A DNA stretch of 64,000 nt. It comes from an uncultured bacterium (GTDB taxonomy: Bacteria > Myxococcota_A > Polyangia > Polyangiales > Houyiibacteriaceae). How positions within the stretch are numbered: position 1 is the first letter of the stretch; every line of letters starts with the position of its first letter. Location: assembly GCA_938024995.1 (NCBI GenBank), contig CALJDU010000006.1, positions 147,052-211,051 of the forward strand. The letters run 5' to 3'. Made by a program: the position numbers and the translations under genes. Shown here in pieces: positions 17,645 to 23,297 of this stretch. The notes under the pieces are model-generated. The model saw only the letters and a list, made by a program, of their open reading frames with translations. It made no database searches and was not told the origin of the DNA.

Positions 17645-18682
17645 ATGGACACGATGAACTCTACGCCCATGCTCGCGCGCGCGGCCTACCGCGCACAGCA
17701 CACGTCGATGATCTGGTCGAGCACGATGGCGCAGATGGCGCTTCGACGCGTCACCCGCAGCAAGATCGGTCCGCCACCGCCCGATGTGCAGGAGTCGGTC
17801 GACCAGCGTCTTCGTGAGCTCCTCGATCGCGACCTCGCGAACGTCGACGCCGGCCACTACCCGGCCTCGCTCCTCTTTCAGATGCCGGTGCGCGAGTACG
17901 CCAAGACGTTCCCGCGGCTCCTCCGCGAGTTCCCGCGCGTCCTCGCTCGGATCGCGCGTCGTGACTACAAAGATCTCCCGAAGGACGTCGACCTCGCGAA
18001 GTACCCGCCCTACTTCCGGCGGACGTTTCACTGGCAGACGGATGGCTATCTCAGCAAGCGCTCCGCGGAGCTCTATGACGCCGGGGTTGAGTTCCTCTTC
18101 GCGGGCACCGCGGACATCATGCGGCGGCAGATCATCCCGCCGATCTCGAAGTTCATCAAAGAGCGCGGCGCGGACGACGCGCGTTTGCTCGACGTCGCCG
18201 CGGGGACAGGTCGCACGCTCTCGCAAATCGCGATCGCGCACCCCAAGCTGCGACTGACCGCGCTCGATCTCTCGCCCTTCTACTTACAGGTCGCGCGGAA
18301 GCAGCTGCGCGATGTGGCGGACGTCTCGTTCGTCGCCGAGAACGCCGAGGCGATGCCGTTTCAGGACGCGCATTTCGACATGGTGACGAGCGTCTACCTC
18401 TTTCACGAGCTCCCCAAGAACGCGCGGCGCAATGTCTTTCGCGAGATGTTCCGGGTGCTCCGCCCGGGCGGCCTCTTGGTCATCGAAGACTCCGCGCAGC
18501 TGGCGGAGAGCGCCGAGCTCGCCGAGGTTCTCGGGAACTTCAGTCAGGAGTTCCACGAGCCCTTCTACGCGGACTACGTTCGTGACGACCTCCGCGCCGC
18601 GCTCGAGGCCACCGGATTCGATGTCGAAGAGGTGCAAGAGTGCTTCGTCGCCAAGGTCGTCGTGGCGCGCAAGCCAGCGTAA
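17645..18682 (+). CDS. SAM-dependent methyltransferase, class I
   Basis: 345 residues. The N-terminal ~150 residues are helical and include YAKTFPRLL and FHWQTDGYLS. The methyltransferase core begins with LLDVAAGTGRT (about residue 180), the SAM-binding motif I. TALDLSPFY is motif II, and ENAEAMPFQDAHFDMV is motif III/IV of the UbiE/MenG-like group. VLRPGGLLVIED is the motif typical of small-molecule methyltransferases. The acceptor is unknown. It starts 86 bases after the lipoprotein gene and ends 16 bases before the archaemetzincin gene, so it may share a transcript with it. Confidence 0.9.
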   Translation: MDTMNSTPMLARAAYRAQHTSMIWSSTMAQMALRRVTRSKIGPPPPDVQESVDQRLRELLDRDLANVDAGHYPASLLFQMPVREYAKTFPRLLREFPRVLARIARRDYKDLPKDVDLAKYPPYFRRTFHWQTDGYLSKRSAELYDAGVEFLFAGTADIMRRQIIPPISKFIKERGADDARLLDVAAGTGRTLSQIAIAHPKLRLTALDLSPFYLQVARKQLRDVADVSFVAENAEAMPFQDAHFDMVTSVYLFHELPKNARRNVFREMFRVLRPGGLLVIEDSAQLAESAELAEVLGNFSQEFHEPFYADYVRDDLRAALEATGFDVEEVQECFVAKVVVARKPA

Positions 18683-18698
18683 GCGTACGATCGCCGCG

Positions 18699-19457
18699 GT
18701 GACCGATCGCGCTCGTCAGCTCCTCCTGTTCCTCTGCATCGTGATGCTGAGTGGATGCGACGGCGCGGAGGCGCAGCGCGAAGAGCCACGCGCTGAACCG
18801 ACCCAAGCGCCAGTCCCCGCGCCGACCGAAGCGATCGAACCCGCGGTTGCCGAACCGCCCGCGGACCTGAAGCGCGCGCTCGTGAAGCTCGTCGTCCTGG
18901 GCGAGTTCGACGACGCGCTCGCGGAAGCGGTCGCGCAGGGTCTTCGTGATGAGCTCCAGGTAGAGGTCGAGATGATCTCCGGTGAGCCGCTCCCGCGCCG
19001 CGCGTACTACCGACCGCGTCGTCGCTATCGCGCGGAGCGTTTGCTCGACCATCTTCGTCAGCGCCTCGAAGGCGCCCCGGCGAGTGTCCGCGTGCTCGGC
19101 CTGACCTCCGTCGACATCTCGACCACGAAAGGCAACGTGCGCGACTGGGGGATCCTTGGCCTCGGCGACATCGGCGGACGCGCGTGCGTGATCAGCTCGT
19201 TCCGCATGCGCCGTCGCGGGCTTCGTGATCAGGCGCACCTCCGCTTTCGGGTCGTGAGCACCGCCATTCACGAGGTCGGCCATACGCTGGGCCTCGAGCA
19301 CTGCCTCGAACCGCGGGGCGTGATGAACGATGCGCGCGGGACGATCCGGACGGTGGACCAGAGCAGCGGCCACCTGGGGCCCGAGTGTCGCGCGGAGCTC
19401 GATCGGGAGGAGCCGCGGCGATTCGACTTCTCCCAGGCGACTGAAGCTTCCCCGTGA
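18699..19457 (+). CDS. Exported archaemetzincin-family metalloprotease lipoprotein
   Basis: 252 residues from a GTG. A signal peptide ends in LSGC (lipid Cys20), then comes a Pro/Glu-rich spacer to about residue 55. The catalytic domain shows archaemetzincin hallmarks: AYYRPRRRYRAERLL (102-116), VLGLTSVDIS (132-141) and the zinc site HEVGHTLGLEHC with His191, Glu192, His195, His201 and the adjoining Cys202, then Met209 for the Met-turn. The family pattern has four cysteines binding a second zinc. Here Cys202 and Cys230 remain, but the middle two positions are Gly207 and Gly227. The stop overlaps the next gene start as GTGA. Family is firm; export and the changed zinc site are unusual for this otherwise mostly cytosolic family. 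Confidence 0.88.
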   Translation: MTDRARQLLLFLCIVMLSGCDGAEAQREEPRAEPTQAPVPAPTEAIEPAVAEPPADLKRALVKLVVLGEFDDALAEAVAQGLRDELQVEVEMISGEPLPRRAYYRPRRRYRAERLLDHLRQRLEGAPASVRVLGLTSVDISTTKGNVRDWGILGLGDIGGRACVISSFRMRRRGLRDQAHLRFRVVSTAIHEVGHTLGLEHCLEPRGVMNDARGTIRTVDQSSGHLGPECRAELDREEPRRFDFSQATEASP

Positions 19458-20866
19458 TCGCGGAAGAACACGAAGCGGCCCACGAGCTCGGGACCGACTC
19501 GGGTCGACGGCTCGGCGTCGCGACATCCACGATGCTGGTCATCGCGTCCATGATCGGGACGGGCGTCTTCACGACCAGCGGCTTCTTGGTACGCGATCTG
19601 GGCTCTCCCATGTTGGTGCTCTTGGCGTGGGCCCTCGGCGGCCTGGCCGCGCTCTTCGGTGCGCTCTCGTATGCTGAGCTCAGCGCCGCGCTCCCCAACA
19701 ACGGCGGTGAGTACTACCTGCTCTCGCGTGTCTTTCATCCGGCGCTCGGCTTCGCCGCGGGCATCGTCTCGCTGGTGGTCGGATTCTCTGCGCCGATCGC
19801 GGCCTCCGCGATCGCGTTCGGCGAGTACACCAAGCGCGCGCTCGGGGTCGACGATCCGAACTTCGTGATGACCGCGGGTCTTGGACTGATCGTGGTCTCG
19901 ACCATGGTGCACCTCGGCAGCGTGCAGAGCGGGACGCGCTTTCAAAACGTCACGACCGCGATCAAGCTCGCTTTCGTCGTCGGGGTAATCTACCTGGGGC
20001 TCTCGCAAGGAGACGTCGGTCGGTTGAGCGAGGTGCCCGCTTCCCCACGCGAGGGGACCTTTGGCGCGCTCGCGGTCTCGCTCGTCTTCGTCTCGTTCGC
20101 TTACAGCGGCTGGAACGCGGCGGCCTACCTCGCCGGCGAGACCCGTGACCCAAGCAAGACCCTTCCGCGCGCGCTCTTCATCGGGACGGTCACGGTCACC
20201 GTGCTCTACGTCGCGCTCACCGCCGCGCTCTTGATGGCGGCGCCGACCGAAACGCTCTCGGGCGTGCTCGAGGTCGCGCATGTCGCGGCCGCTGCGCTCT
20301 TCGGCGAAGACGCGGGTCGCTTCGTTTCAGGCGTCATCGCGATCGGCCTGATCAGCACCGTGGGCGCGCTGACGATGACCGGGCCGCGGGTCTACGAAGC
20401 GATCGGCGCGGACTACCCGCTGCTGCGCGCGCTCTCCAGGCGAAGCGAAGGGCGCGGTCCGGGTTTCGCGATCGCGACCCAAGCGGTGATCGCGGCCGCC
20501 CTCGCGATGACCGCGAGCTTTGACACGCTCCTGATCTACATCGGCTTTACGCTCTCGTTCTTCGCGGCGATGACCGCGCTCGCTGTGATCGTGCTGCGCC
20601 GGACCGAGCCCGATCTGCCGCGACCGTACCGCGTCACCGCGTATCCGCTGCCGCCGGTCGTCTTCATCGCGCTGATGCTCTGGATGATGTGGTTCACGGT
20701 TCGCTCCAGCCCGATCGTGACGCTCGCCGGCGCGGCGACGATCGTGTTCTCGTTCATCGTCTGGCTCATCGTGCGTCCCCGCGGAGGTTCGCCGCAGGAG
20801 CTCATCACGTCAGGCACGCACCCGATCCCGCTCTCCATTGCGCCGGTGCCGTACGAAGAAGAGTAG
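19454..20866 (+). CDS. APC-superfamily amino acid permease
   Basis: 470 residues with about 12 hydrophobic segments. The first helix carries TMLVIASMIGTGVFTTSG, the substrate- and sodium-site GxG signature of APC transporters. Another conserved element is FSYSGWN-like FAYSGWNAAAYLAGE near residue 215. The closest style is the broad-specificity amino acid transporters (LAT/AAT-like), and the substrate cannot be told. It starts with a GTG overlapping the archaemetzincin stop (GTGA), so the two are translationally coupled: a peptidase and an amino-acid carrier in one operon. It ends seven bases from the convergent TIGR02996-like gene. Confidence 0.92.
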   Translation: MIAEEHEAAHELGTDSGRRLGVATSTMLVIASMIGTGVFTTSGFLVRDLGSPMLVLLAWALGGLAALFGALSYAELSAALPNNGGEYYLLSRVFHPALGFAAGIVSLVVGFSAPIAASAIAFGEYTKRALGVDDPNFVMTAGLGLIVVSTMVHLGSVQSGTRFQNVTTAIKLAFVVGVIYLGLSQGDVGRLSEVPASPREGTFGALAVSLVFVSFAYSGWNAAAYLAGETRDPSKTLPRALFIGTVTVTVLYVALTAALLMAAPTETLSGVLEVAHVAAAALFGEDAGRFVSGVIAIGLISTVGALTMTGPRVYEAIGADYPLLRALSRRSEGRGPGFAIATQAVIAAALAMTASFDTLLIYIGFTLSFFAAMTALAVIVLRRTEPDLPRPYRVTAYPLPPVVFIALMLWMMWFTVRSSPIVTLAGAATIVFSFIVWLIVRPRGGSPQELITSGTHPIPLSIAPVPYEEE

Positions 20867-20873
20867 CCGTGGC

Positions 20874-23297
<2,424 letters not shown>

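Follow-up and report, generated by a model that had tools for sequence, protein, structure and literature searches.

Archaemetzincin lipoprotein with a reduced four-cysteine site, and stepwise cysteine loss among its exported relatives

The locus and its protein

The window, by which we mean the whole stretch of 64,000 nucleotides analysed, holds the one M54 gene found in its genome (at 18699-19457), flanked by a methyltransferase and an amino-acid permease. Features at the locus are as follows, with C1 to C4 denoting the four cysteine positions of the archaemetzincin Cys4 site.

17645..18682, + strand: SAM-dependent methyltransferase, 16 bases upstream of the protease (Pfam Methyltransf_25, 7e-23)
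18699..19457, + strand: archaemetzincin-family lipoprotein gene, 252 aa, GTG start (Pfam PF07998, NCBIfam NF033823, PDB archaemetzincins)
18699..18758, + strand: lipoprotein signal peptide by sequence, with n-region VTDRAR, hydrophobic core and lipobox LSGC containing Cys20
19185..19187, + strand: Cys163, third cysteine of the mature protein, on the strand preceding the active-site helix
19269..19301, + strand: catalytic motif His191-Glu192-x-x-His195-x-x-Gly198-x-x-His201, by sequence
19302..19304, + strand: Cys202, C1 of the Cys4 site, kept (sequence, homologue alignment)
19308..19310, + strand: Glu204, at C1+2; Glu or Asp in 26/26 proteins lacking C3, Glu in 0/72 four-cysteine proteins of the same set
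19317..19319, + strand: Gly207, at the C2 position (sequence, homologue alignment)
19323..19325, + strand: Met209 of the Met-turn, by sequence
19377..19379, + strand: Gly227, at the C3 position (sequence, homologue alignment)
19386..19388, + strand: Cys230, C4, kept (sequence, homologue alignment)
19454..20866, + strand: APC-family amino-acid permease, its start overlapping the protease stop as GTGA (Pfam PF13520, 9e-46)
20874..22145, - strand: 423-aa protein resembling leucine-rich repeats on reading, with no Pfam match

The assignment of the protein to the archaemetzincins, made in an earlier note from the sequence by eye, was borne out by profile, PDB sequence and fold. It scored 38.9 bits against Pfam PF07998 (Peptidase_M54; curated cut-off 24.4) and matched archaemetzincin crystal structures at 3e-10 in a PDB sequence search. 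With an AlphaFold model of its domain (pLDDT 81, pTM 0.82) as the Foldseek query, five archaemetzincin chains ranked first (TM 0.69-0.71 by query length), followed by ADAM8 and other metzincins. Against the NCBIfam archaemetzincin subfamily model NF033823 it reached 107 bits (8e-31), short of the naming cut-off of 145 bits, and six exported relatives, four-cysteine proteins included, scored 89-118 bits, so that the exported group goes unnamed by NCBI's model. Membership of the CarG-like subfamily NF033824 is contradicted by a score of 62.8 bits against a cut-off of 250, and by the presence of Glu192.

The published archaemetzincin fingerprint is HEXXHXXGXXHCX4CXMX17CXXC, with the four cysteines arranged around one zinc in crystal structures (PMC3427221, PMC4681839). 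The window protein fits every spacing of this fingerprint, yet glycine replaces the second and third cysteines (CGGC for CCCC), and it thereby departs from the four-cysteine pattern CX4CXMX17CXXC at C2 and C3. The HEXXHXXGXXH motif with its catalytic Glu, and the Met-turn Met at C1+7, are all present across residues 191-209 (HEVGHTLGLEH...M209). Counted from the GTG at 18699, the residues named in the earlier note (His191, Glu192, His195, His201, Cys202, Gly207, Met209, Gly227 and Cys230) are all exact. Its description of a site reduced to exactly two cysteines holds for the Cys4 site and not for the whole protein, which has five: Cys13 and Cys20 in the signal peptide, Cys163 as an extra cysteine of the mature protein, and Cys202 and Cys230. 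By these features it is an exported archaemetzincin whose second metal site is reduced and, from its catalytic set, probably a working protease.

Downstream, the permease GTG overlaps the protease stop at 19454-19457. This coupling by GTGA, already remarked upon, has a counterpart in two further genomes from the window's family, with the gene order and a 4-base overlap both conserved (ATGA in G016, GTGA in G025); it was not seen in G001, G058, G062 or G174. Such conservation supports a putative joint role of protease and permease in the window's family. With the two genes translationally coupled in three genomes, protease and permease probably act together, by a weak inference, in supplying peptides or amino acids from the envelope; peptide scavenging in particular is a guess. 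Adjacency of the methyltransferase was not seen in the relatives compared. A PADLOC match of this methyltransferase to mad2 (8e-19) most likely arises through the shared methyltransferase domain alone, and PADLOC returned nothing for the protease.

Cysteine states among homologues

M54 genes were gathered from the window's order, its close relatives, its class, its phylum, a second phylum and named contigs (Sandaracinus, Nannocystis, Plesiocystis, Verrucomicrobia, Fibrobacteria, Bacteroidota and others), reduced to 195 different proteins and scored for the states of C1-C4 on a MAFFT alignment. All four cysteines were present in 142; C3 was lost in 24, C1 and C4 together in 11, C4 in seven, C2 and C3 together in two and C2 in one, while C1 had become His in four and four were fragments. 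The other four possible two-cysteine pairs, and forms with one or no cysteine, were absent from the 195. The 24 proteins that have lost C3 belong to Sandaracinaceae/Nannocystaceae. Relatives with 54-69% identity to the window protein have three cysteines and neighbouring clades have four, which places it, on this alignment, as a variant inside the archaemetzincin family.

The CGGC state is shared by the window protein and one other (L035 = L109), from a Deltaproteobacteria MAG, isolate B10_G4, at ~58-60% protein identity. An assembly or sequencing error could in principle have produced both glycines, given a genome in 119 contigs and the rarity of the state; the recurrence of CGGC in this second, independent genome at such a distance, and a Gly at the C3 position in most near relatives, make that explanation hardly credible.

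Catalytic residues are intact in all 26 proteins lacking C3. The residue at C1+2 is Glu in 24/24 of the three-cysteine proteins and Glu or Asp in both CGGC proteins; among the 72 four-cysteine proteins of the same set none has Glu and five have Asp. Two other residues were considered as replacements. Cys163 is a cysteine in both CGGC proteins and Ala or Ser in 24/24 of the three-cysteine proteins lacking C3, and was dropped as a substitute for C2 since it is common in four-cysteine proteins and the two CGGC proteins may share ancestry (AU p 0.65). His225 was ruled out as a replacement ligand, not being conserved in L035 and others.

Other exported groups have lost different cysteines. The 11 proteins lacking C1 and C4 and keeping C2 and C3 (L118, L121, L123, L172, L173, L177, L180, L184, L185, L230 and L232) are a mirror image of the window protein, and each has four cysteines in its domain. 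Loss of C4 alone occurs in exported proteins with Tat signals (L051, L053, L062, L063, L066, L071 and L234). The four archaemetzincins with His for C1 (L197, L198, L199 and L261) likely form a CCCH zinc site.

Trees were built, two of them with the four cysteine columns excluded. Most proteins lacking C3 group together, with a small four-cysteine Tat-signal clade (L020, L023, L025, L026 and L061) beside or nested among them; support for the C3-less proteins as a single clade was 79/57. The first tree makes sisters of the two CGGC proteins, the larger one sets them apart, and the AU test permits one clade (p 0.65). C2 was thus lost once or twice, and later than C3; the count stays at once or twice because the trees differ and the test allows a single clade. 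Proteins lacking C1 and C4 form a separate clade (UFBoot 92), and loss of C4 alone happened on four further occasions, in four separate places, bringing the losses of C4 counted on the tree to five. Cysteine loss in exported members is stepwise, and the CGGC state of the window protein is real and part of this wider process.

Export and envelope oxidation

The lipoprotein signal claimed for the window protein stands by sequence, with a lipobox LSGC at residues 17-20. Asp at lipoprotein position +2 was dropped as an inner-membrane signal, since inner-membrane lipoproteins of Myxococcus xanthus favour Lys there (PMC3222651). For homologues, a signal was called by rule, as a hydrophobic stretch that follows a start codon and a positively charged residue. 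By this rule 99/142 of the CCCC proteins bear signals, as do nearly all proteins with cysteine losses; of those that the rule misses, L078, L079, L089 and L230 look signal-bearing when the N-terminus is read, and L099 less clearly so. Apart from the four conservative changes to His, cysteine losses are therefore all in signal-bearing proteins; for most of these the signal was called by the rule, for five by reading the N-terminus. In a Pfam-only sample of the window's order, 46/56 M54 proteins carry a signal and 10/10 of the signal-less ones are CCCC, so the earlier note's picture of a mainly cytosolic family is wrong for the present group, in which export is the rule.

The same note would have abandoned its reading of the reduced site had signal-bearing homologues kept all four cysteines. 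As a general rule they largely do (about 99 proteins), although the specific loss in the window protein is real. Export is accordingly rejected as the cause of cysteine loss, because those ~99 signal-bearing homologues keep CCCC; it permits such loss and does not cause it. Protection of the site by Tat export, in which folding comes first, was also ruled out: 7/7 of the proteins that have lost C4 bear Tat-like signals, and many lipoproteins are CCCC.

At 94% completeness, the window's genome encodes several proteins of the DsbA family, a CPFC or CPYC motif being present in some. Neither DsbB nor VKOR had a match in it, so catalysed envelope oxidation remains unsupported there. Across 20 compared genomes DsbB was absent from all, and VKOR was present in 12, among them G001 (the source of the second CGGC protein) and three-cysteine Nannocystaceae genomes, and was not found in G016, G025, G058, G062 or G174. 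With VKOR present in four-cysteine genomes, three-cysteine genomes and one two-cysteine genome and missing elsewhere, VKOR/DsbB was ruled out as a correlate of cysteine loss; given this distribution, oxidation machinery does not track the cysteine states.

Proposed fate of the second zinc site

We consider it on balance probable that the locus encodes an envelope-anchored protease whose Cys4 site has been dismantled stepwise, with a Cys202-Cys230 disulfide in its place and a permease-linked role in supply. After signal cleavage Cys20 would be lipidated, and an acidic and proline-rich linker would reach the metzincin domain, in which, by homology, His191, His195 and His201 would hold the catalytic zinc and Glu192 would act as general base. 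From an ancestral CCCC state, the path would lead through CCGC plus Glu, with C3 lost on a background of a carboxylate at C1+2, to CGGC by loss of C2. The window protein has most likely lost the classical second zinc.

What took its place is a separate matter. Published work points both ways: against our reading, removing one cysteine from M. kandleri AmzA (C163A) or from CarG (Ser mutants) left the protein unstable or inactive; in its favour, two disulfides occupy the place of the Cys4 zinc in other metzincins (PMC3427221). The counterparts of Cys202 and Cys230 adjoin one another around the second zinc in solved relatives. That these two cysteines are joined in a disulfide holding the C-terminal subdomain together, as the earlier note suggested, is a step to which, taken alone, we give somewhat less than even weight. 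In its favour, C1 and C4 are one of the only two pairs ever retained, two-cysteine proteins keeping the complementary pairs C1+C4 or C2+C3, and the group keeping C2 and C3 has an even number of cysteines in all its members. Complementary pairs would be expected if C1 pairs with C4 and C2 with C3. This pattern is suggestive only, coming from two or three independent events: at a chance of 1/3 for each independent event beyond the first, agreement with one partition would arise by chance at ~1/9 for three events and 1/3 for two. Against the disulfide stand the lack of DsbB and VKOR matches and the three-cysteine state, which would fit a metal site too. A disulfide for zinc in the window protein is thus plausible without being proved, and its rivals are serious.

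The first of these follows from the three-cysteine intermediate. All 24 such proteins keep C2 as well, an odd number that a simple C1-C4 disulfide leaves unexplained, and three cysteines with a conserved Glu fit an altered metal site no less than a disulfide. The second metal site might accordingly persist with changed ligands, as Cys3Glu in the three-cysteine relatives (Cys-x-Glu-x-x-Cys plus C4), and as Cys202, Glu204 and Cys230 with water or another ligand, holding the metal more weakly, in the window protein. Because every protein lacking C3 carries Glu or Asp at C1+2, a residue pattern so uncommon among four-cysteine proteins, ligand replacement is a real rival; and the strict retention of all three cysteines in the 24, across Nannocystaceae and the window's order, suggests a working site in the intermediate and speaks against a plain disulfide there. 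However, members of the neighbouring four-cysteine Tat-signal clade have Asp at C1+2, so a carboxylate may already have been in place when C3 was lost and be a mere mark of lineage; in the window protein a further cysteine has gone, leaving three candidate ligands, and His225 offers no conserved fourth. We regard ligand replacement as unlikely for the window protein, if a serious contender.

Relaxed decay would be another course, the second site being unneeded in exported members and the remaining cysteines being leftovers with neither bond nor metal. The recurrence of losses in several exported groups, with C4 lost five times, the variety of replacement residues (G, D, N, R, V, S, T, E and P) and, again, the missing oxidation enzymes are what such decay would produce. 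Free decay should also yield one- and zero-cysteine forms and unmatched pairs, and the 195 homologues hold no one- or zero-cysteine form and, among two-cysteine proteins, complementary pairs only; we judge decay as unlikely as ligand replacement. The C1-C4 disulfide is therefore our preferred, tentative reading for the window protein. Its extension to a natural series in exported archaemetzincins, from Cys4 zinc through Cys3Glu to a single disulfide, C1-C4 or C2-C3 by lineage, is a doubtful proposition.

Comparison with known systems

Archaemetzincins were said in the 2012 family paper to occur in "very few eubacteria" (PMC3427221), yet exported members are common in Myxococcota; our literature search found no assayed archaemetzincin of the exported type. 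The closest characterised relative is AmzA (MEROPS M54; 2X7M, 3ZVS, 4AXQ, 3LMC), with which the window protein shares the fold, HEXXHXXGXXH, the Met-turn and the spacing of the cysteine positions, with a sequence 26-29% identical to the structures from A. fulgidus and M. kandleri and 21% identical to 3LMC; it differs in being a lipoprotein and in lacking C2 and C3 of the Cys4 zinc site. Standard assays showed no activity for A. fulgidus AmzA (PMC3427221). AMZ-tk of Thermococcus kodakarensis, of the same family, degrades casein with zinc; unlike the window protein it retains all four zinc-finger cysteines, and the paper describing it mentions no signal peptide (PMC4681839). CarG of Myxococcus xanthus, a non-proteolytic archaemetzincin-like protein (NF033824), is likewise myxobacterial with an archaemetzincin fold, but has Gln for the catalytic Glu, belongs to a transcriptional regulator and needs all four cysteines (PMC3427221), whereas the window protein has an intact Glu, an export signal and an NF033824 score far below 250.

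Next best by fold are the adamalysin/ADAM metzincins (Bap1, ADAM33, ADAM8), in which disulfides replace the Cys4 zinc (PMC3427221). They are a separate family, with two disulfides instead of a single C1-C4 pair, and are linked to the window protein only through the metzincin fold. A trade of zinc site for disulfide upon the move to the envelope has usually been argued from such distant metzincin families, zinc in one and disulfides in another. Here a single family, in proteins roughly 40-60% identical, spans the four-cysteine state, two different intermediates and two different end states, and the question of zinc to disulfide thereby becomes directly testable.
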